A DNA stretch of 64,000 bases from Psychromonas sp. MME1 (GTDB lineage Bacteria > Pseudomonadota > Gammaproteobacteria > Enterobacterales > Psychromonadaceae), in assembly GCF_041080865.1 (NCBI RefSeq), contig NZ_CP160906.1, positions 62,001 through 126,000 of the forward strand. The letters are read 5' to 3'. The translations under genes were made by a program, and so were the position numbers. The notes below the pieces were generated by a model, which saw only the letters and a list, made by a program, of their open reading frames with translations, ran no database searches and was not told where the DNA came from. The first letter of the stretch is position 1. Every line of letters begins with the position of its first letter. This document shows, piece by piece, positions 6,340 to 17,973 of this stretch.

Positions 6340-7329
6340 TTACTGTAGTTTTTTATTCATTAGCGATGCATTTCTATCAATAGGGCTTGTCGTGCAGGAT
6401 GAATGCTGACCAATAACATGCGTATATATCTGGGTTGTTTTTAAGTCGTTATGCCCTAATAACTCCTGAACGGTTCTGATGTCTGTCCCATTTAACAGTA
6501 ATTGAGTAGCAAAACTATGGCGGAAGGTATGTGCAGTGACATGCTTTCTAATACCACTTTTTATCACTGCTTTTCTTAACTCTTTTGTAAGCGAAGTCCA
6601 ATGTAAGTGATGTCGGCAAAAGTAACCATCAACAGGATGCTGACAACGATTTCTAGAGGGAAATATATATTGCCATTTAATATCGGTGATTGCATAGGGG
6701 TACTTTCTTGCAAGTCCGGTTGGTAAACTGGTTCTTCCTTCTCCTTCTAATATATCTTGTTGGTGTAGGTCTTCCACTTTACTTATTTGTGCTCTGATCA
6801 ACGGTATTATTGTTTGTGGGAGTAGAGCTACTCTATCCTTACCACCTTTCCCACGAAATATAAAAATTGAATTAGATTCAAAATCAATATCTTTTACCCT
6901 TAACCTGAGCAACTCAGATTTTCTTAGGCCACTGCCATATAAAATTAAAAACATCAGTCTATATGGTTCTTTCAGTAAGTTAATAATAGTCATTGCTTCA
7001 TTATTTGATAAAACAACCGGTACACGTTTCGGGGCTTTTGCTCTGACGGTATCATCAAGTAAAGTGAGTTCTCGGGAAAATATATGTTTGTACATAAACA
7101 CAATTGCACACAAAGCAAGGTTTTGAGTGGATGCGGTAACACCTCTTTGAACAGCCAGATAAGTCAAAAATTGACTGACTTCTTGCTCTGCCATATCTTG
7201 AGGATGCCGTTTGTGATGAAAAATAATGAATCGCTTTATCCAAGCTAGATAAGATTTTTCAGTTTGAATACTGTAATGCTTCGTTCTTAACACCTGCCTA
7301 ATGTGTTCTAGAAAGGGAGATTTTGACAT
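6340..7329 (-). CDS. intI: Integron integrase
   Basis: A 329-residue tyrosine recombinase. The catalytic Arg is in YGSGLRKSELLRLR, the HxxR in TAHTFRHSFATQLL, the His in LLGHNDLKTTQIYTH, and the nucleophilic Tyr in that last motif. The insertion LPTGLARKYPYA...WQYIFPS is the extra domain found only in integron integrases, where it helps bind folded attC. The enzyme inserts and excises cassettes at attI/attC. It is transcribed away from the array. The start at 7329 was chosen over an upstream in-frame extension because AGGA lies 8 bases before it and homology begins there. A LexA box sits just upstream. Confidence 0.93.
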   Translation of the reverse strand: MSKSPFLEHIRQVLRTKHYSIQTEKSYLAWIKRFIIFHHKRHPQDMAEQEVSQFLTYLAVQRGVTASTQNLALCAIVFMYKHIFSRELTLLDDTVRAKAPKRVPVVLSNNEAMTIINLLKEPYRLMFLILYGSGLRKSELLRLRVKDIDFESNSIFIFRGKGGKDRVALLPQTIIPLIRAQISKVEDLHQQDILEGEGRTSLPTGLARKYPYAITDIKWQYIFPSRNRCQHPVDGYFCRHHLHWTSLTKELRKAVIKSGIRKHVTAHTFRHSFATQLLLNGTDIRTVQELLGHNDLKTTQIYTHVIGQHSSCTTSPIDRNASLMNKKLQ

Positions 7330-7348
7330 CATTTCGATCCTATTTTTA

Positions 7349-7364
7349 CTGTTTTTATATACAG
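7349..7364. promoter_or_regulatory. LexA (SOS) box in the intI promoter
   Basis: CTGT-TTTTATAT-ACAG matches the gammaproteobacterial LexA consensus CTGT-N8-ACAG exactly. It lies 20 bp before the intI start codon. SOS control of integron integrases is established for Vibrio and class 1 integrons. Confidence 0.88.
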
Positions 7365-7500
7365 TTTTAGTTTGTATTTTATAAAAAAGCAAAAAACAAT
7401 AAATTATGTTCCATTTCAATTAGACCAGAATAGGTATTTGGTCGGTAAGTAGGTGACAATCTTTTGAACCATTAATAATATCAACTTTTTTAAATTGGAT

Positions 7501-8020: not shown

Positions 8021-8121
8021 GCATAACAAGTCACTCAAGCAGGACAAATAACAGTTGGCTTTTGTTCGCTTCGCTCACTATTTTAGCCAACCATTATTTG
8101 CCTCTTAGTGAGGCGTTAAAT
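8021..8121 (+). repeat. attC site 1
   Basis: Starts GCATAAC (R'') and ends GTTAAAT (R', 8115-8121, a GTTRRRY match). Long complementary arms lie inside (ACAAATAACAGTTGG against CCAACCATTATTTG; CTCA against TGAG). If attI is at 7992, the first cassette is only about 120 bp and has no gene. Confidence 0.85.
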
Positions 8122-8136
8122 GGCACAAGGATACGC

Positions 8137-8493
8137 ATGGGACGTCGATATAGAAAACGTAGTTCAATAGTTTCAGATTCCGTTTCCATAGGTTCACGTT
8201 TACCTTGGTGGGGTGCACTAATATTTGGCTGTATATCGTTTGTTCTTTTCTATTTTATAATTCCAAGTTGGCTTGAAGCAAAATTAGCATCAGAGTCTCA
8301 GAACATGTTTTATCCTTTGCTAGAAGCTATTTTTGGTCGCAGAATTCATTGGTTTGAATGGGTTGGTATTGCCTGTGGGTTAATAGGTTTGTTCTTTTGC
8401 ATTAGAAATTCCCTTTTTGGTAATCGCGCAGGGCATTCAGAAAGAACTATTGTTGGGTACTTTGCTCGAATGTTTGGGCGAGACCTAAGCTAA
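8137..8493 (+). CDS. Cassette gene: two-TM membrane protein of unknown function
   Basis: 118 residues. A basic N-terminus (MGRRYRKRSS) is followed by TM1 at about 23-44 and TM2 at about 75-90, with a short basic tail. The N-terminal half resembles the membrane anchor of some Mrr-like restriction endonuclease proteins, but no nuclease domain follows, so the role is open. The start at 8137 was chosen because AAGG lies 6 bases upstream and any longer version would run through attC. It is the first gene-bearing cassette after intI, so it is likely to be the best expressed. Confidence 0.65.
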   Translation: MGRRYRKRSSIVSDSVSIGSRLPWWGALIFGCISFVLFYFIIPSWLEAKLASESQNMFYPLLEAIFGRRIHWFEWVGIACGLIGLFFCIRNSLFGNRAGHSERTIVGYFARMFGRDLS

Positions 8494-8499
8494 GTTGCC

Positions 8500-8596
8500 A
8501 TTTAACAAGCAATTTAACAGGACTAAAAACAGCGGGCTATTTCGCTTCGCTCCATTTTAGCCCACAATTTTTAGCCCGTTAATATGGGCGTTATGT
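8500..8596 (+). repeat. attC site 2
   Basis: R'' ATTTAAC and R' GTTATGT (8590-8596) with paired inner arms (GCGGGCTA against TAGCCC; AACAGGACTAAAA against TTTTTAGCCCGTT, imperfect). It follows the stop codon of the previous gene by 6 bp, as expected of a cassette. Confidence 0.85.
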
Positions 8597-8609: not shown

Positions 8610-9050
8610 ATGAACCAGCAACAGGAACATTATCGGCAACGTACAGTCGCATTGTTAACTAATTACCAGTTACTAGAGTTAACTTTGAAAATGTACATCG
8701 GCACTTCATATGACTACATACAAATGCTTGTTGCAGACCATATTCACTTTGATTTTTCTATCAAAGATGTTGAAAGCTATCCATTAGAAAGATTGCTCAA
8801 TGTGTTTGGTAAAATGAACGACAATACTGATCTTAAAAAGAGACTCAATAAGCTTAGAAATGAGCGTAATTACATCGCCCACGAAGCTTTAATTGTCACT
8901 ATTGGTAATAACCCCAATATGGATACATTACATAAAAAAGCAGAAGATTTTTTCTATTTAGAAGATGAGCTTATGGAATGTTTAAAATTACTTACTGATG
9001 AGTTTGCCAAGCTAAAAATGAAAGGCGAATTCAGTCGGTTAAATACATAA
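8610..9050 (+). CDS. Cassette gene: HEPN-like protein
   Basis: 146 residues, all helical in appearance. RNERNYIAHEAL (about 83-94) contains the R-N-x3-H arrangement typical of HEPN domains, many of which are RNases in toxin-antitoxin, abortive infection or CRISPR systems. Flanking helices (residues 8-40 and 115-140) fit the four-helix HEPN bundle. No antitoxin gene is in the same cassette. It is therefore either a non-toxic HEPN or controlled elsewhere. Its stop codon overlaps the R'' of attC3. Assignment rests on one short motif. Confidence 0.6.
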   Translation: MNQQQEHYRQRTVALLTNYQLLELTLKMYIGTSYDYIQMLVADHIHFDFSIKDVESYPLERLLNVFGKMNDNTDLKKRLNKLRNERNYIAHEALIVTIGNNPNMDTLHKKAEDFFYLEDELMECLKLLTDEFAKLKMKGEFSRLNT

Positions 9051-9140
9051 CAAGGCAATTAATCGGAACTAAAACAGTGGGTTACGTTTCGCTTCGCTAC
9101 ACATTTTAACCCACTGCTTTAGTCCGCTTATTGCGGCGTT
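9045..9140 (+). repeat. attC site 3, carrying the IS1182-family insertion at its R' end
   Basis: R'' ACATAAC (9045-9051). The arms ACAGTGGGTTA and TAACCCACTG pair. The site runs to GTT at 9138-9140, where the insertion begins. The remainder of R' (GTTATGT) reappears at 10988-10994 after the element. Confidence 0.85.
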
Positions 9141-10987
9141 GAGGCTGTAGAATTTCTCCAAAAAGAACATTTTTACATTCTTTCTCTTTTTGTGTTGATT
9201 GTATAAAAAATGTACTTGAATGCGCTGATCGACTGTGATCTAATAGTTATTATTCGCTCAGAGTTAAATGTAATGGCCAACTATAAACCTGACTTATCCT
9301 GCCAAAGTAAATTCATTCCGATTGATTTTGCACAGCAAATTATTCCCGGAACGTTTGAATACGCACTTTCCCATATCGTCGACAAACACCTTGATTTAAG
9401 TACCTTTGATAAATGGTATAACAACGACAAAAATGGTGCCGCAGCTTACCCACCTTCAGTGATGCTTAAAATAATCTTGTTTGGCTATTCTCGCGGATTG
9501 GTTAGTAGTCGTCGAATTGCTAATGCTTGTGAAACGAACATTACCTTTATGAGCTTATCGGGTGATGTACAACCTCATTACACCTCCATTGCCAGCTTTG
9601 TTGCTAAAATGAAAGACCAAATTGAACCGCTTTTTACACAGGTTTTAATGATATGTGACCGTGAAGGTTTGATAGGTCGTAACATGTTTGCGATTGACGG
9701 ATGTAAAATTAGTTCGAATGCCAGTAAAGAGTGGAGTGGCACATTTGATGAACTTGAACGCAAACAAGCTAAGTTACGTCGAGCAAGTCAACGCATATTA
9801 GCACGTCATCAAGCACAAGATAATTCAAACGAAGATGACTTGTCACATGACTTAAAACAGAAAGCGAAACTCGATAAAAGCGCTGATAAAATTAGCGCAT
9901 TCCTTGCGACAAATACAGAGAAATTAGGCAGTAGAAACACACCCGTTAAAAGTAATATCACCGACCCAGACAGCGCTAAGATGACGACCAGTAAAGGCAC
10001 GATTCAGGGGTATAACGGGATTGCCATTAATGATGATAAGCATCAAGTGATCATGCAAGCACAAGTTTGGGGAAGCGTTGGAGAACAACAAACCTTACAA
10101 CCTGCCATCGAAGCTCTGCAAAAACAACTGGCAGAACTCGGTACGCCCGATACTTTCAGCGAAGCAAAGTTTACCGCAGACAGTGGTTTCCACAGTGAAG
10201 TGAACCTTGAATTTATCGCTACAACGGGATTCGATGCTTACATCGCAGACACTGCGTTTAGGAGTCGTAATCCATTATTTAAAGAGAGTGAAACGTATCA
10301 TACAGAGCAGGAAAAACGACGATTGAAACGCAGTAAAGGTCGGGCGAGATTGTTTAATAGCAATGATTTTTACTTTGATGAGGCAGCATTAACCTGTCGC
10401 TGTCCAGCGGGCAAAGAGATGTGGTTGAGTGTGAAGCAAGTTGAAACAGCGGGTAGGCAATATGTGCGTTTTTCAGGGTATTTAAAAGATTGCCGAGTCT
10501 GCCCACTTCAGCAACAATGTATGCGCAAATCGCCTACAAAACAAGGTCGACAAGTACAGTTTGAGATTAATAAAAGTACTAAACCCATCTCCTATACCGA
10601 TAAGATGCGTGTGAAGATAGACTCTAGCGCAGGGCGACGACAATACAGCAAGCGACTAGGAGCGATTGAACCCGTGTTTGGTAACATCACCGTCAATAAA
10701 GGGATGAATAAATTCACGCTGCGCGGGCAAGAGAAAGTCAATGCGCAATGGCAGATGTATTGTTTAGTGCATAATATAGAGAAGTTAAGGAATAGTTTAC
10801 ATTAACACAAGGGCTAAGCCCTTAAACTGCAATAATCCAGCCTAAATAACCTCATAAATACCTTCACAGCTCAAATTAATCAATCATTTATTGAAAAGAG
10901 AATAATCTATTGGAATCTAAACTAAATATGAATTAATGTGGTTTTATTTTAAATAATCAGGCTGAAAATGAGAAATTCTACAGCCTC
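9141..10987 (+). mobile_element. IS1182-family insertion sequence in attC3
   Basis: 1847 bp bounded by perfect 18-bp inverted repeats GAGGCTGTAGAATTTCTC. It is flanked by GTT on both sides (9138-9140, 10988-10990), so the target is the GTT of the attC crossover and the duplication is probably 3 bp. It carries one transposase gene. The three MITEs at 12106, 12657 and 15221 share its ends and its insertion point. Confidence 0.9.
9273..10805 (+). CDS. IS1182-family transposase
   Basis: 510 residues. The N-terminal domain (FDKWYNNDKNGAAAYPPSVML, then FGYSRGLVSSRRI) and the DDE core are typical of IS1182 transposases: FAIDGCKISSNASK (Asp), FTADSGFHSE (Asp) and a C-terminal RRQYSKRLGAIEPVFGNI (Glu). 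A cysteine cluster (CRCPAG, then DCRVCPLQQQC) near residues 390-430 is a family feature. The start at 9273 (MANYKPDLSC) was preferred to a 21-codon extension that has no homology. It appears intact, so this element could mobilise the MITEs. Confidence 0.9.
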   Translation: MANYKPDLSCQSKFIPIDFAQQIIPGTFEYALSHIVDKHLDLSTFDKWYNNDKNGAAAYPPSVMLKIILFGYSRGLVSSRRIANACETNITFMSLSGDVQPHYTSIASFVAKMKDQIEPLFTQVLMICDREGLIGRNMFAIDGCKISSNASKEWSGTFDELERKQAKLRRASQRILARHQAQDNSNEDDLSHDLKQKAKLDKSADKISAFLATNTEKLGSRNTPVKSNITDPDSAKMTTSKGTIQGYNGIAINDDKHQVIMQAQVWGSVGEQQTLQPAIEALQKQLAELGTPDTFSEAKFTADSGFHSEVNLEFIATTGFDAYIADTAFRSRNPLFKESETYHTEQEKRRLKRSKGRARLFNSNDFYFDEAALTCRCPAGKEMWLSVKQVETAGRQYVRFSGYLKDCRVCPLQQQCMRKSPTKQGRQVQFEINKSTKPISYTDKMRVKIDSSAGRRQYSKRLGAIEPVFGNITVNKGMNKFTLRGQEKVNAQWQMYCLVHNIEKLRNSLH

Positions 10988-11063
10988 GTTATGTGGCTTT
11001 GTGCAAAGTAGCATTGCTATTTATACTTTTATCATTTTTACAATACGTTAGGTTATTAAACTT

Positions 11064-11483
11064 ATGTCCAAAAAAATTTATCTTGTGAAATATGAAATTG
11101 AGGATGATATCCCTATTGATGAAACCTCTGAAACACTGGACTCTACTTACATTTCAGATGATTTAATTGCTTGGCTACAAGATAATGAATTCTTAGTCGA
11201 AGAAAAAATCAAGGAAAGTAAAGGAAACAATCCTGATATTGAAGTCATCTTTATAAATGATGAAAAAGGCAAGGGTCTTGATGATATCTTCAGTCATTTG
11301 GAAAACCTTGTTTTAAAAATGATAGAAGATACGGCTTCTAAAAATAGGGATGGCGTTATTGTCGCCAATGAAGTTGATAACGATCTGACAAATATTCAAG
11401 TCCTATTGAATGTCAGAAGTATTATAAGAAGAAAAAGGGATAAGTTTGCTGACTCTCCATATATTAAGTTGATGCTGGGGTAG
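11064..11483 (+). CDS. Cassette gene: acidic protein of unknown function, first of a two-gene cassette
   Basis: 139 residues, strongly acidic in the first 75 (EIEDDIPIDETSETLDS), ending in a basic segment (SIIRRKRDKFADSPYIKLM). No known domain was recognised. It is separated by 6 bp from the nuclease-like gene that follows and lies in the same cassette, so the pair probably works together. By analogy it could be the specificity, sensor or inhibitor partner of the nuclease; this is inference only. Confidence 0.6.
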   Translation: MSKKIYLVKYEIEDDIPIDETSETLDSTYISDDLIAWLQDNEFLVEEKIKESKGNNPDIEVIFINDEKGKGLDDIFSHLENLVLKMIEDTASKNRDGVIVANEVDNDLTNIQVLLNVRSIIRRKRDKFADSPYIKLMLG

Positions 11484-11489
11484 TCATTT

Positions 11490-11984
11490 ATGTCTAAAAA
11501 TAGTGAGAAAGGCAGAAGGGGCGAACTAGCTGCAACTGGAATTTTTTCTAATATTGGTGTTCGTGAGAAAAAATTTGAGGTGCTTCGTACAAGTGAAACT
11601 ACAGTAGCTGACGATGGTGTGGATATTATAGTTAAATGCCCACATAACACCGCAGAAAAATTCGATGAAATTGTCGAGCAAGGTAGTTCTGATATTGCTT
11701 TATCTAGTACTCAGATTGGCGTAAGAGCACAAGTCAAAAATTATTCAAAACCAATTACTAAAGCTGTTGCCGAAGGATTTGTGGAAGACATTGAAAAAAA
11801 TTCGAATTTTGATGAACACTGGCTAATTGGTGGTACTCGATTAACCAAAGGTGCAAAGGAAGCGTTGGATAAGAGCAAAAATAAAGCTCCTATTAGATAC
11901 TATTCTAATGAAGGGTTTACAAAAATTCAGTCTCAATACCCAGCGATCCCTTTCTCTGAGATAAATGATATTGATGATGAGTAA
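11490..11984 (+). CDS. Cassette gene: Mrr/PD-(D/E)XK-like nuclease candidate
   Basis: 164 residues. RRGELAA (Glu about 12), DDGVDIIVK (Asp about 45) and AQVKNY (Q-x-K about 81-83) follow the order and spacing of an Mrr-like restriction endonuclease fold, with QxK as a known variant of the (D/E)xK motif. The following HWLIGGTRLTKGAKEA resembles the strand and helix after the active site in such proteins. Mrr-type enzymes cut foreign or modified DNA. No separate DNA-recognition domain is present, which points to the upstream gene as partner. The fold assignment is by motif only. Confidence 0.65.
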   Translation: MSKNSEKGRRGELAATGIFSNIGVREKKFEVLRTSETTVADDGVDIIVKCPHNTAEKFDEIVEQGSSDIALSSTQIGVRAQVKNYSKPITKAVAEGFVEDIEKNSNFDEHWLIGGTRLTKGAKEALDKSKNKAPIRYYSNEGFTKIQSQYPAIPFSEINDIDDE

Positions 11985-12010
11985 AAACCTGAATAATATC
12001 AGTCAGCGTC

Positions 12011-12105
12011 ACATAACAAGTCACTCAAAAGGACAAATAACAGTTGGTTCTTGCTCCTTCGTCGCTTATTTTAACCAACTGTTATTTGCCTCTTAGTGAG
12101 GCGTT
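12011..12105 (+). repeat. attC site 4, with a MITE at its R' end
   Basis: R'' ACATAAC. It closely matches attC1 (CAAGTCACTCAA, GGACAAATAACAGTTGG, CCTCTTAGTGAGGC). The GTT of R' is at 12103-12105 and is immediately followed by the MITE. The other half (GTTATAC) is at 12233. Confidence 0.85.
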
Positions 12106-12232
12106 GAGGCTGTAGAATAACTCGCTTTTTATAAAACTTTAATAATTGAAGATTTTTAACTTATTGTTTTAATTGGTAATTAAATTTTAAAAATGGCTGT
12201 TTTTTCTTAAAAAAGAGAAATTCTACAGCCTC
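12106..12232 (+). mobile_element. MITE copy 1 (127 bp)
   Basis: Begins GAGGCTGTAGAATAACTC and ends with the inverted copy of GAGGCTGTAGAATTTCTC, the terminus of the IS at 9141. No coding capacity. Flanked by GTT on both sides within attC4. Confidence 0.9.
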
Positions 12233-12262
12233 GTTATACGCTATTCATAATTTGGAAGTATC

Positions 12263-12574
12263 GTGGAAATAATTAGAAGTAAAGAATTCAAATCTGAACG
12301 CGCTTGGGGTGCAAAAGACATCGCAAATATGAACGGTATTACGACGCGCTTGCATTGGACTGATCAGCCTTATAAGTGGCATGTAAATGACGGCGAAGAA
12401 GTGTTTGTTGTTTTAGATGGCGTTGTTGAAATGTTGTTTAAAGAAAATGGAATTGAGCAATCATCGGTTTTAAGAACAGGTGATATATTTTATGCGTCTA
12501 TTGGAACTGAGCATGTTGCGCATCCGCGTGGTGAAGCTCGAATATTAGTCGTAGAATCGGAAGGAAGCGTATAA
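12263..12574 (+). CDS. Cassette gene: small cupin-domain protein
   Basis: 103 residues forming one cupin barrel. The first cupin motif region is YKWHVNDGEEVFVVLDGVVEM (about 35-55), with His and Glu metal-ligand positions. The second is LRTGDIFYASIGTEHVAHP (about 72-90), with GD and the terminal His. Such single cupins are metal-dependent enzymes or sugar/ligand binders; the substrate cannot be read from sequence. It occupies a cassette alone, 30 bp downstream of a MITE. Confidence 0.8.
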   Translation: MEIIRSKEFKSERAWGAKDIANMNGITTRLHWTDQPYKWHVNDGEEVFVVLDGVVEMLFKENGIEQSSVLRTGDIFYASIGTEHVAHPRGEARILVVESEGSV

Positions 12575-12656
12575 CAAGTCATTTAAATGGAAAATTAACA
12601 GTTGGCCATCGCTTCGCGATTATAGCCAACCATTAATTTCCACTTAATGAGGCGTT
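12569..12656 (+). repeat. attC site 5, with a MITE at its R' end
   Basis: R'' GTATAAC overlaps the stop codon of the cupin gene. The arms AACAGTTGGC and GCCAACCATTAA pair, with a short GCTTCGC loop. GTT lies at 12654-12656. It is the shortest attC in the array. Confidence 0.85.
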
Positions 12657-12783
12657 GAGGCTGTAGAATAACTCGCTTTTTATAAAACTTTAATAATTGA
12701 AGATTTTTAAGTTATTGTTTTAATTGGTAATTAAATTTTTAAAATGGCTGTTTTTTCTTGAAAAAGAGAAATTCTACAGCCTC
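12657..12783 (+). mobile_element. MITE copy 2 (127 bp)
   Basis: Nearly identical to copy 1, same orientation, GTT on both sides (12654-12656, 12784-12786). Confidence 0.9.
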
Positions 12784-12818
12784 GTTATGAATCACAATCA
12801 AAGTTAATAGGTATACGC

Positions 12819-14081
12819 ATGGATAAAAAAATACAAGGGTCGTGGTTAATTCATCATACCAATAAGTTACAAAATGTAACTAATCAAGGAAAGTATCAAA
12901 ATACCTTTGTAGCAGGTAAAGCAGGGATTTTGTTATCAGCAATTTCAGAGACAAATGAAAGTGTATTATCAAATGAGAAGTTAGAAGTATTGGCAAACGC
13001 TTCAAATATCAATATCGTTTTTGAACTTCCCAAGCTTATTGAAGTATTAAAAGAACAGGATCTAGTTGATGTTTCAGCTAGCGGTATTGGGGTTCTAGGT
13101 GTGACAACATCATCTGCTTTACAGCATACCTCTAATATTTTCGAATCACTCAACCCTAAAGATATAGAAATTTCATCCATTGAGCTTGCTGAAGCAGCTT
13201 CAATAAGACCTGTTAATAGTTCAGAACTTTCCCAACGATTATCGGATGAGTATAAATTAACTAATAACGAAGTAAATCAGCTTTTTCATGACTCAGAGAA
13301 AATAGGTTTTGTAGATGTTGAACATATTAGTAAAAATGAAAAATTACTTTTTAATGGAAATTTATTTAGAAGAGATTCTGCTGCAAAAACAAAAGCAGTA
13401 TTAGACTCTTTGACCGTTACGGAGCAGACATCCTTGACTGAATTGACGCAGAGATTAAGGCTCATGGCTTGTGTTGCAATATCTGATGCACAGCGAATTC
13501 TTGGTGAAAAATTATTTAAAAAAATCAATGCTATTGGTTTTTTTGATATTAATGTTGTAAGTAATAGCCAAGAAGAAGTTGGTTATCTTACGTTACCTTC
13601 GGCCTTTTCAAAATACAGTAACTCCATGGTAGATGATGCATTTGATTTGGCGAAAGCATTCGTAGCATCTTTGACTTACGGTATGACAAAAAGTGGTCAT
13701 GCCCGAGGCCAGATTAGCATGATTGACAAGTTGCTAGGAGCTCTCATTGATGGTCGAGAAGTAGGCCCAGTAAGTGCTATCGGCCAAGACTATAAAATCT
13801 TAGAATTAAAGGGTGTTGTTGCAATAAGGCACGGCACTAAAGGCGGGCGTAGCGGGCCACTTATGAGACTTTTGAAAAGAGAAGTCGGTGAATTAGCTTT
13901 ACAAGCGATTAGAATGGGCGATGTAAGTGAACAATCTATACTCTCACTACCTGGTGCAGCCATTACCAAATTTAGAGGTCCTGAAGCAAATAGGGAAATA
14001 ATCAGACGGGAACAAATACAAAGAAGCCCATTTGAAACCAATGATATGATTAGTGCATTAAGAACAGGAGGGGGCTTCTAA
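12819..14081 (+). CDS. Cassette gene: 420-residue protein of unknown function, first of a two-gene module
   Basis: No family was recognised. Residues about 130-170 (NSSELSQRLSDEYKLTNNEVNQL) look like a winged-helix DNA-binding unit. A second helical section (about 190-230) precedes a C-terminal region rich in Gly and Arg (RHGTKGGRSGPLMRLLKREVGE). The stop TAA overlaps the ATG of the next gene (TAATG), so the two are translationally coupled. At about 2.4 kb the cassette is unusually long. A DNA-binding sensor paired with a nuclease is the natural reading, but this is inference. Confidence 0.7.
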   Translation: MDKKIQGSWLIHHTNKLQNVTNQGKYQNTFVAGKAGILLSAISETNESVLSNEKLEVLANASNINIVFELPKLIEVLKEQDLVDVSASGIGVLGVTTSSALQHTSNIFESLNPKDIEISSIELAEAASIRPVNSSELSQRLSDEYKLTNNEVNQLFHDSEKIGFVDVEHISKNEKLLFNGNLFRRDSAAKTKAVLDSLTVTEQTSLTELTQRLRLMACVAISDAQRILGEKLFKKINAIGFFDINVVSNSQEEVGYLTLPSAFSKYSNSMVDDAFDLAKAFVASLTYGMTKSGHARGQISMIDKLLGALIDGREVGPVSAIGQDYKILELKGVVAIRHGTKGGRSGPLMRLLKREVGELALQAIRMGDVSEQSILSLPGAAITKFRGPEANREIIRREQIQRSPFETNDMISALRTGGGF

Positions 14082-15130
14082 TGGGAAAAATATTATCCAA
14101 AGGCTTTGAAATGGAAGAGCAACTTAGAAATTACTTTATGCAATCTGGTTATTTTGTTGTTAGAGGCGTACCTTTTGCATATAAAGGATTTGATGTCACT
14201 GATATAGATTTGTGGCTTTATAGTCGTGAATCTTCTCTTACAAGAAATATAACTATTGTTGATGTCAAAAATAAAAAAACACCTCAAGCAATAGAAAGAA
14301 TTTTTTGGGCAAAAGGTTTAGCTCAGGCCGTTAATGCACAGAACGTTATCGTGGCAACGACCGAAAGAAGAAAAGAAGTTAAAGAATTCGGACAAGATTT
14401 AGATGTATTAGTGTTGGATGGGGTTTTTCTATCGAAGCTGTCAAAATCCGAAGGTTTTCTAAAAAATAGATTTTCGGATGAAGAATTCTTTGATTCTATC
14501 GAAAAATACAGCCTGAGTAAATTAGATGGCGATTGGAAAGGGCAAATGGTGAAATGTAAAAGCTTATTAACCAAAGGTATTAGCTTTGATTCATGCAATC
14601 AATGGCTGGAAGTGTCTAGGTACTTCGCAGAACAAATTTTAACAAAACCTAGTCAAGTGGATGTGGCATTGAGATGTTTTTATTATTCTTTGTCACTATT
14701 TTCGATTGGTGTTGATTTCATTCTGAAGGAGTTGTCTTTTTTAGATCATGACGAGAGAATAAGTAAACTAATTGAAGGGTTTACATATGGTGCAAAGGGG
14801 CTGAATGGTGTTACTAAGATGTTGTCACTTTCTCTTTCTCTTGTAGAGCAGTTTGCTGCTGAAGGTAAAGCTATTTCTTCTCAGGTGCGGTCCAAAATCA
14901 TGGCTGATTTTGAATCATTGCCAACAGGAATTATTGGGGAATATTTTGCCAAAAGTGATGTGGGAAAAATTCTTTTCCCTGTTGCTAAAGAACTAGAAGG
15001 CTTAGCTATGAATCGTCAATTTAGAAATCATTTAGAGTCATCGCTTGAGTTACGTGGAATGCTCGGTTGCTTATTAGATTGTTGGGAAATTAACCGGAAA
15101 GAATTTAGCATTGTAGTAAGCACCTCATAA
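14081..15130 (+). CDS. Cassette gene: protein with an N-terminal PD-(D/E)XK-like nuclease domain
   Basis: 349 residues. The first 100 fit a restriction-endonuclease-like fold: EMEEQLRNYF (Glu about 10-13), VTDIDLWLY (Asp about 41-43), TIVDVKNKK (D-x-K, 61-63) and a helix with AKGLAQAVNAQNVIVATTE. The remaining 250 residues are mainly helical and unrecognised (FRNHLESSLELRGMLGCLLDCWE near the end). It is coupled to the 420-residue gene upstream. As a two-gene cassette with a nuclease signature it is a good candidate for an undescribed anti-phage or anti-plasmid module. Catalytic assignment rests on the motifs only. Confidence 0.7.
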   Translation: MGKILSKGFEMEEQLRNYFMQSGYFVVRGVPFAYKGFDVTDIDLWLYSRESSLTRNITIVDVKNKKTPQAIERIFWAKGLAQAVNAQNVIVATTERRKEVKEFGQDLDVLVLDGVFLSKLSKSEGFLKNRFSDEEFFDSIEKYSLSKLDGDWKGQMVKCKSLLTKGISFDSCNQWLEVSRYFAEQILTKPSQVDVALRCFYYSLSLFSIGVDFILKELSFLDHDERISKLIEGFTYGAKGLNGVTKMLSLSLSLVEQFAAEGKAISSQVRSKIMADFESLPTGIIGEYFAKSDVGKILFPVAKELEGLAMNRQFRNHLESSLELRGMLGCLLDCWEINRKEFSIVVSTS

Positions 15131-15220
15131 CAAGGCACTTAAACGGAACAAAAACAGTGGGTTATGTTTCGCTTCGCTACACATTATAACCCACTGTTTT
15201 TGTCCGCTTAGTGCGGCGTT
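15125..15220 (+). repeat. attC site 6, with a MITE at its R' end
   Basis: R'' TCATAAC overlaps the stop codon of the nuclease-like gene. Very similar to attC3 (ACAGTGGGTTA, TTTCGCTTCGCTACACATT, TAACCCACTG). GTT at 15218-15220. Confidence 0.85.
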
Positions 15221-15347
15221 GAGGCTGTAGAATAACTCGCTTTTTATAAAACTTTAATAATTGAAGATTTTTAAGTTATTGTTTTAATTGGTAATTAAAT
15301 TTTTAAAATGGCTGTTTTTTCTTGAAAAAGAGAAATTCTACAGCCTC
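15221..15347 (+). mobile_element. MITE copy 3 (127 bp)
   Basis: Same sequence and orientation as copies 1 and 2; almost identical to copy 2. GTT at 15218-15220 and 15348-15350. Confidence 0.9.
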
Positions 15348-15370
15348 GTTATGTGCTAGAGGAGTGAAGC

Positions 15371-15658: not shown

Positions 15659-17203
15659 ATGGCTGCAAATAGGCTCACAATGCGTAAAATCAGAGAAGTT
15701 TTAAGACTGCGTTTCGAGGCAAATCTCAGCGTTCGTCAGATCAATGCCAGTACCAAAATAAGTGTTGGTGCTATTCAAAAATTACTAACAAAAGCCAACG
15801 AGTTAACCCTTTCCTGGCCATTATCTAATGAGCTGGATGATACAGAACTGGCTAGGCTGTTTTATCCCAAAGCCGATACCCAGACCGCTCGTCGGTTCCA
15901 AATACCTGACTGGCCCGAAATACATAAAGAACTCAAAGCAAAAGGAATGACTAAGCTGCTGTTATGGGAGGAGTATTGTCAGCAGTACCCAAATCGTTGT
16001 TTGAGTTATTCGCAATTCTGCGATCGCTATTTAAATTGGGCTAAAAAGCAGAAACGCTCCATGCGCCAGACCCACAAGGCGGGTGACAAATTATTTGTTG
16101 ATTACGCCGGACAAACCATGTCTGTCATTTCACCGACAACAGGAGAAGTCAGAGCTGCTCAGATCTTCGTTGCTGTTCTTGGCGCATCAAACTACACCTA
16201 TGCAGAAGCCACATGGAGTCAAAGCCTACCGGACTGGCTTGCCAGTCATGTGCGTACCTTCGAGTTCATTGGCGGCACCCCAGTGATGGTTGTACCGGAT
16301 AATCTGCGTAGCGGGGTAAGTAAAGCGTGTCGCTATGAACCCGAGTTAAATCCAAGTTATCAGCAGTTGGCAGCCCATTATAGCGTCGCGGTCATGCCCG
16401 CTAGGCCCTACAAACCCAAAGATAAATCCAAAGCAGAGGTAGGTGTACAGATCATTGAGCGCTGGATTTTGGCTCGATTACGCCACCAGATCTTCTTCTC
16501 GTTAGCAGAGCTTAATCGCTGTATTGCCTCATTATTAACCGAGGTCAATTTAAAGCCGTTTAAACAACTGCCGGGAAATCGGTTGCAATGGTTTGAGCAA
16601 TTGGACAGGCCATTACTTAAAGCACTACCGGTTCATCCATATCAATATGTCGATATTAAATCGGCCAAAGTTAATATCGATTATCATATCCAGTACGATC
16701 AGCACCTGTACTCAGTGCCGCACCACCTAGTCGGTGAAAAAGTCGAACTGCATGTCGGCGATAAGCTGGTACAGATTTATTTTAAAACACACCTGCTCGC
16801 CAGCCATGTCAGGAAGCACCATCCCGGCACAACAACCGAGCCAGGGCACATGCCAGAAAGGCATGCCAAGCACCAACAGTGGAGCCCTGGACGCCTAAAA
16901 AACTGGGCAAAGGATATAGGGCCGGAGGTGCTGCGCTGGGTATCAGATCAGCTAGAGCACAAAGAGCATCCGGAGCAGGCATACCGCGTGTGCTTGGGGC
17001 TGCTTAATTTAACACGCTCCTATCCGGCAGAACGCCTGAATAATGCCTGTGCAATCGCGAACCAGAAAGCCCTCGTAAAGCTTAAAAACATCAAAGCCAT
17101 TCTGCTAAGTAATCAGGACAAATTACCCCGGGAGGAGACGGCTAAAGCCATCACTTTACCTCAAGATCATGAAAATGTTCGCGGGCCCCAAAGCTTTCAT
17201 TAA
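15659..17203 (+). CDS. istA: IS21-family transposase IstA
   Basis: 514 residues. An N-terminal helix-turn-helix ([22 protein letters not shown]) precedes a DDE core: [11 protein letters not shown] (Asp), [10 protein letters not shown] (Asp) and [16 protein letters not shown] (Glu). A beta-barrel C-terminal part follows. All catalytic residues are present and the frame is open, so it is likely functional. It is followed 11 bp later by istB. Confidence 0.93.
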
Positions 17204-17214
17204 TAAGGATAATA

Positions 17215-17973
17215 ATGATGATCGACCAGACTTTATCACAGCTTCGCCAACTGAAACTTAGCGGTATGGCAACAGCGCTACAAATCCAATCGGAACAGCC
17301 CGGCACCTATGAAGGACTCTCATTCAACGAACGCATTCACCTATTGGTTGAAAGCGAAAAGTTAGAGCGGGACAACCGAAAACAGCAGCGTCTGCTGCGT
17401 ACTGCCAAGCTCAAACTCGCAGCCAATATACGAGATATTGACTACCAACACCCACGAGGAATTCAGCCGTCTCAGATGGCTGCGTTAACGCAGTGTGACT
17501 GGCTAAGGAAAGCACAAAACTTACTTCTCACTGGGCCGTGCGGTAGCGGTAAAACATACATCGCCTGTGCTTTAGGGCATTCAGCTTGTATGAACGGCTT
17601 CAGCGCTCGCTATTATCGTATATCACGGCTGATGCTGGAGTTAACTCAATCAAAAGCAGACGGCACTTACAGAAAGGTATTAAAAAACTTAGCTCAAACG
17701 GATCTGCTGATATTAGACGACTGGGGATTAGAGCCATTGAAAACAGCGCAACGCAATGATCTTATGGAGATAATGGATGACCGGCACGGTACTTCATCAA
17801 CGATCATTATCAGCCAGTTACCGACTGAACAGTGGTATGAAATGATTGGGGATAATACGCTTGCAGACGCTATTTTAGATCGCGTAATGCACAACTCACA
17901 TCGATTAAAACTCAAAGGAGAATCAATGCGAAAAAAACTAAACAGCTTGACCCATGGTGAACACTTAGGGTAA
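17215..17973 (+). CDS. istB: IS21-family helper ATPase IstB
   Basis: 252 residues, DnaC/DnaA-like AAA+ ATPase that selects the target and activates IstA. Walker A LLTGPCGSGKTYIAC (about 102-116), Walker B LLILDDWGLEP (about 163-173), sensor region STIIISQLP. Intact. AAGGATAATA precedes ATG; a second ATG directly follows the first. Confidence 0.93.
   Translation: MMIDQTLSQLRQLKLSGMATALQIQSEQPGTYEGLSFNERIHLLVESEKLERDNRKQQRLLRTAKLKLAANIRDIDYQHPRGIQPSQMAALTQCDWLRKAQNLLLTGPCGSGKTYIACALGHSACMNGFSARYYRISRLMLELTQSKADGTYRKVLKNLAQTDLLILDDWGLEPLKTAQRNDLMEIMDDRHGTSSTIIISQLPTEQWYEMIGDNTLADAILDRVMHNSHRLKLKGESMRKKLNSLTHGEHLG

Follow-up and report, generated by a model that had tools for sequence, protein, structure and literature searches.

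Insertion of IS1182-like elements and MITEs at the attC crossover triplet in an integron of Psychromonas sp. MME1

Introduction

Integron arrays are usually seen as shaped by the integrase IntI alone, and their known guests are IS1111-attC elements and IIC introns. Here we describe an integron in Psychromonas sp. MME1 in which an IS1182-like insertion sequence (IS) and three miniature inverted-repeat transposable elements (MITEs) occupy four of the six cassette recombination sites (attC). It lies in a stretch of 64,000 nucleotides (contig NZ_CP160906.1, positions 62,001 to 126,000), hereafter the window.

Several mobile elements with related habits have been described. The IS1111-attC group (ISKpn4, ISPst6) targets cassette attC at one position (PMC11187229, citing Post & Hall 2009 and Tetu & Holmes 2008) by means of a DEDD transposase and an RNA guide (PMC11187229). 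The elements described here work alike in that they insert at a fixed place in attC, but they are not members of that group, since they have a DDE transposase, 18-bp perfect ends, a 3-bp duplication and MITEs. By transposase profile they resemble the IS1182 family, in which IS1272 and some other members target stem-loops (PMC5678879, PMC4923244). IS1272 replaces inverted repeats or a stem-loop without duplication (PMC5678879), whereas here GTT is duplicated, nothing is replaced and a C-GTT-A core is preferred. Group IIC-attC introns, largely confined to attC (PMC7923331), are retroelements on the R'' side, opposite to the cassettes, while the present elements are DNA transposons at R'. The ISAjo2 group of the IS1202 family inserts at pdif/dif, next to a site for a tyrosine recombinase, always in one orientation and with a short duplication (PMC10132070); there the insertion lies 5 bp from the XerC site, here inside the attC crossover triplet. 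IS that target attC are already known, and what is new within the literature searched is a DDE IS1182-like clade with MITEs. No attC-targeting IS1182 element was found in that literature, with ISfinder and subscription papers outside the search; PMC9137128 and PMC9908598, in their accessible portions, merely list IS1182.

Comparison of the sequences makes it very probable that an IS1182-like DDE clade with GAGRCTGTAGAA ends inserts both IS and same-ended MITEs into the R' box of attC, with the GTT duplicated and in one orientation. What carries this reading is observed directly: where the elements sit, the triplet on either side of them, their orientation, their excess at attC over sequence-matched controls, and the clade. 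The transposase would insert at the R' box with a 3-bp duplication of the GTT triplet and a preference for the C-GTT-A core; it would itself read the site, most likely as duplex CGTTA beside the attC stem-loop, and the MITEs would be moved in trans by the transposase of the IS.

Insertion sites in the window

The window holds an integron integrase gene (intI; TIGR02249, 404.3 bits) together with an array of six attC, which were detected with a covariance model (R1) trained on 28 uninserted sites that included attC1 and attC2 of the window and left out attC3-6. The ends of attC3-6 coincide with the insertion points, and the bottom strands of these four sites fold with z-scores of -5.5 to -7.5. 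Eight exact GAGGCTGTAGAAT termini make up four inverted pairs (9141-10987, 12106-12232, 12657-12783 and 15221-15347); shuffled sequence, with 2 mismatches allowed, gave a mean of 1.40 matches and a maximum of 4. CGTT precedes and GTTAT follows every pair, and all four elements share one orientation. The occupied sites and the elements are as follows.

9045..9144, + strand: attC3, GTT at 9138-9140 and then the IS; R1 73.2 bits, bottom-strand fold z -5.58
9141..10987, + strand: IS1182-like IS, 1847 bp, 18-bp perfect terminal inverted repeats
9273..10805, + strand: DDE transposase, 510 aa, frame open from 9210; DDE_Tnp_1_6 111.7 bits, DUF772 55.8 bits, NF033551 266.3 bits
10988..10990, + strand: second GTT copy behind the IS
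12011..12109, + strand: attC4, GTT at 12103-12105; R1 76.2 bits, fold z -5.46
12106..12232, + strand: MITE 1, 127 bp, GTT behind at 12233-12235
12569..12660, + strand: attC5, GTT at 12654-12656; R1 81.3 bits, fold z -6.62
12657..12783, + strand: MITE 2, 127 bp, identical to MITE 3, GTT behind at 12784-12786
15125..15224, + strand: attC6, GTT at 15218-15220; R1 75.1 bits, fold z -7.48
15221..15347, + strand: MITE 3, 127 bp, GTT behind at 15348-15350

The preliminary description had placed the IS and the three MITEs at the same base of attC, and this is confirmed: each lies directly behind the crossover GTT, in four of the six window attC, with a second GTT behind it.

Survey of the genus

The 18-bp terminus, with at most one mismatch, occurs in 21 of 24 genomes of the genus, and the reversed pattern in none. 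Flanks were taken from 106 regions and from the copies in the MME1 genome itself (G000). Ends were found with up to 4 mismatches (175), and the 141 with at most one mismatch were used for the triplet count; GTT/AAC adjoins 130 of them. The placement of the window elements at the attC GTT is no local accident.

Among the genus GTT-side flanks (up to 4 mismatches), the model called attC in 41 of 58. Controls from the same loci gave attC calls at 29 of 5936 GTT, 19 of 481 CGTT[AG], 16 of 122 GCGTT[AG] and 13 of 28 GGCGTTA sites, with Fisher p values for the comparison of 3e-33 (CGTT[AG]), 2e-14 (GCGTT[AG]) and 0.035 (GGCGTTA). Insertion sites with a GGCGTT end were attC in 32 of 37 cases. The signal thus comes in part from a longer sequence motif, to which the attC context makes a further contribution. 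The proposal that an IS1182-like transposase targets attC is in this way borne out beyond the window. A fold-only attC score was also tried as a classifier and put aside in favour of the covariance model, since it separated sites weakly from controls: in the genus, 32/58 sites lay beyond the 5% quantile of GTT controls and 23/58 beyond that of GCGTT controls, and at class level (sampled below) the figures were 23/43 and 22/43.

Target site, duplication and orientation

Flank logos show C-GTT-A as the common target core in attC and non-attC sites. Position -4 is C in 100% of the attC sites of the genus and in 90% of those of the class, and position +4 is A in 91-93%. In L306, which holds an uninterrupted homologue of the gene that one element has entered (L099), a single triplet (ATT) stands where L099 has GTT on both sides of the element. 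This pair of sequences shows a 3-bp target duplication with no loss of target DNA. Stem-loop replacement of the IS1272 type does not fit the pair, nor does it fit the intact attC stems of the window.

The strand transfer itself would seem to take place on double-stranded R', because the duplicated GTT would pair with R'' in the same folded bottom strand.

The direction of the transposase gene relative to the triplet is the same in 28 of 31 transposase-bearing paired elements; the three reversed ones (L037, L039, L057), from Catenovulum and an uncultured Alteromonadaceae, are of one lineage. The 74 paired elements were selected for GTT or ATT on both sides and are therefore no evidence on the triplet. 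In the Catenovulum/Alteromonadaceae relatives as a set (L037, L039, L057 and L059), the orientation to the triplet or attC is the opposite one.

Transposase relationship

The window transposase carries DUF772 and DDE_Tnp_1_6 domains, as expected for IS1182 DDE enzymes, and aspartates at frame positions 164 and 325 are kept both in its clade and in typical IS1182 members. Its score with the IS1182 model NF033551, 266.3 bits, lies just under the cut-off of 270, the next family scoring 42.8 bits. On this score the enzyme counts as IS1182-like and not as a typical member of the family. It is related to IS1182 yet outside its cut-off, and works like IS1111-attC elements.

In a midpoint-rooted tree of 52 transposases, which has long branches, a clade of 29 rows (support 100/100, stem 2.21) stands apart from 23 typical IS1182 rows; the clade consists of rows that have these ends or come from genomes with these ends. 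An EP.FG motif, a crude pattern, is present in 31 of 36 clade rows and 2 of 28 others. Among typical IS1182 members that exceed the NF033551 cut-off, 30 loci were examined with an automatic end finder, and none had GAGRCTGTAGAA ends at a CGTT junction. With the same end finder, typical members L315, L317, L319, L339 and L340 showed terminator-like palindromes on both sides.

Distribution in Gammaproteobacteria

A related terminus, GAGGCTGTAGAAAAAC, was searched in a sample of 369 gammaproteobacterial genomes and found in 29, from 26 genera, with no match to the reversed pattern. The terminus search lists 87 exact ends in total; after removal of duplicates, 86 had their flanks read, of which 83 adjoin GTT/AAC. 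The model, trained mainly on genus sites, called attC at 15/44 GTT sites against 2/277 control CGTT[AG] sites. An intI was present in 23 of the 29 genomes with ends (hand count) and in 123 of the 340 without (p 1.2e-5).

A search of genome contigs yielded 35 loci from Psychromonas, Colwellia, Pseudoalteromonas, Marinomonas and Catenovulum, among others; most of them show CGTT|..|GTT junctions and, where the left flank is present, an attC-like sequence there. Plasmids contributed 3 records only, and viral contigs no relative. One locus (L292) has a tandem IS pair with one GTT in common, from which it follows that an occupied site can be hit again. Another (L135) is a 1438-bp element with both ends present and other DNA replacing most of the transposase gene.

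A third, unrelated guest at the same address, in 21/24 genus genomes and 29/369 gammaproteobacteria, makes attC look like a safe harbour of a general kind. One might go further and suppose a deep DDE clade that evolved to recognise attC and attI as such, with its own MITEs and with insertions that form IntI-movable 5' leaders, in many gammaproteobacterial genera; so broad a reading we hold to be doubtful.

Other copies in the MME1 genome

The 3.59-Mb contig of Psychromonas sp. MME1 contains nine complete elements, namely the window IS, the three MITEs and five further IS copies. Over the length of the window transposase, four of these five show 87% identity to it, and the fifth (L012) is frameshifted. 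Six of the nine elements are at model-detected attC, one at a probable attI (L010), one at an attI-like repeat (L009) and one in a gene with RHS repeats (L013). With uniform use of CGTT[AG], of which the genome has about 14,756 by extrapolation from the window, at least 6 of 9 elements in attC would have p of about 7e-16. Four more single ends (L014-L017) also adjoin GTT. Over 1846 bp the copy at L010 does not differ from that at L013, which points to recent movement.

About 560 bp separate L010 from another integrase gene, intI2 (G000 C1:1301511-1302449). The site of L010 resembles the probable attI of the window and has AAGCTGTT in common with it; a cassette with a short attC-like end stands downstream of the element. 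The left flank of L009 is 95% identical to the attI-like left flank of L010, and different cassettes follow.

Weight of the evidence and alternative explanations

Targeting of attC is strong but not absolute, as attI-like sites (L009, L010) and some genes are hit. The preliminary description held that copies in unrelated sequence with neither GTT nor attC would speak against targeting; the copies found are mostly not of that kind, apart from some gene and attI-like sites. Several points nevertheless weigh against the proposed specificity. Other triplets adjoin 11/141 genus ends (AAT in three, CAC and AAA in two each, and TAT, ACC, AGC and GGT) and 3/86 exact class-level ends. The GGCGTTA control comes near the insertion sites (13/28 attC), so that sequence recognition accounts for part of the signal. 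By the model, 17 of the 58 genus GTT-side sites are not attC; to the eye, some of these look like attC that are short, truncated or divergent, or resemble attI, which is not so for L099, L013 and others. Insertions within genes (L099, L013, L037) show that the attC stem-loop is not required. No intI match was obtained in 6 of the 29 class genomes with ends (E 1e-50; drafts may be incomplete). Not every end in a related genome stems from an event of its own, and the evidence is that of sequences, no transposition having been observed.

The excess of intI in genomes with ends would also be expected if IntI bound at attC or attI, and not the DNA itself, brought the transposase to the site. Such an interaction, with XerC, is proposed for pdif-targeting IS in PMC10132070, and the use of the attI-like sites of L010, beside intI2, and L009 agrees with it. 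The six genomes that lack an intI match speak against this tethering, as do gene sites such as L099, where an integron context is not in evidence, and we judge it unlikely.

Selection could also have shaped the pattern, if any CGTTA duplex were used and only insertions at cassette junctions were spared. The C-GTT-A core common to attC and non-attC sites would fit, as would the GGCGTTA control sites, nearly half of which are attC in the same loci. However, in those same array-rich loci just 19 of 481 CGTT[AG] are attC, and across the MME1 genome 21 attC were detected (model, E <= 0.01), as against an estimated 729 GGCGTTA sites, yet six of these attC are occupied by this element family, which has nine complete elements there. 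We take survival by selection to be improbable, and prefer insertion directed by the transposase to the R' box.

MITEs and their relation to cassettes

The window MITEs differ among themselves at 0-3 of 127 positions. Their likeness to the window IS is limited to 23 bp on the right, with 95.7% identity, and 13 bp on the left, and the view that they derive from this IS has to be given up: they share its ends alone, belong to a MITE family that occurs across the genus and are not simple internal deletions. Forty-one paired elements are shorter than 260 bp, non-coding, and equipped with ends and target duplication as in the IS, as is usual for MITEs. Elements like the window MITEs are 71-84% identical and nearly all in the genus, with one (L233) from another genus.

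The cassette ORFs (open reading frames) on both sides are whole and the left GTT is kept, which makes the site a safe harbour: an element can sit inside the integron without breaking cassette genes. Insertion can alter cassette expression and the R' box used by IntI, and with this system one can examine directly how a site that is folded, or bound by a recombinase, is read by a DDE transposase. A promoter scan of the MITE region gave 3 sites against 2.6 expected.

Because the left GTT is retained, it is possible that a MITE travels with the next cassette as its leader. Among the 74 paired elements and 121 unpaired right ends, no case was found of a MITE moved with a cassette (similar right flank, different left attC); L113 and L146 share both flanks, and L134 and L166 come without a left flank to compare. 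A copy of the window cupin cassette (12234-12574; L009/L021) that is free of the MITE and 89% identical lies about 690 kb away, between attI-like repeats. That IntI and not the transposase spread the elements as cassette leaders is highly improbable, even though the G/TT boundaries are exact IntI recombination points and one attI-like left flank stands before different cassettes in L009 and L010, given the ordinary gene hit with a 3-bp duplication (L099), the conserved inverted ends and DDE transposase, the one MITE type ahead of three unrelated window cassettes, the lack of any pair with the same MITE-cassette behind different upstream attC, and this MITE-free cupin copy in the same genome.

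Other features of the window integron

The remaining features of the integron are listed below.

6340..7419, - strand: intI integron integrase, open frame with the start not fixed; TIGR02249 cut-off 265 bits
7730..7746, + strand: probable attI core AATAAGCTGTTATGCGG, uninserted, assigned from its position between intI and the first attC and from AAGCTGTT, which it has in common with the site hit beside intI2
8021..8121, + strand: attC1, uninserted, R1 88.3 bits, part of the training set
8500..8596, + strand: attC2, uninserted, R1 82.8 bits, part of the training set
11064-11483 and 11490-11984, + strand: two cassette ORFs, the sole match being a weak one of the second to NA-iREase1, below the cut-off
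12263..12574, + strand: cupin-domain cassette ORF (Cupin_2 27.5 bits, cut-off 27.2)
12819-14081 and 14081-15130, + strand: two cassette ORFs, no match in Pfam or NCBIfam

Two of the window cassette regions matched only scraps of 26-34 bp elsewhere in the genus. Positions 8193-8500, part of the second cassette, are 99.4% identical over 308 bp to another genome of the genus (L179). Behind MITE 3, at 15659-17973, two ORFs encode a Mu-type/rve transposase and a short partner resembling an ATP-binding protein; the pair, which we take to be IS21-like, appears to interrupt the next cassette.

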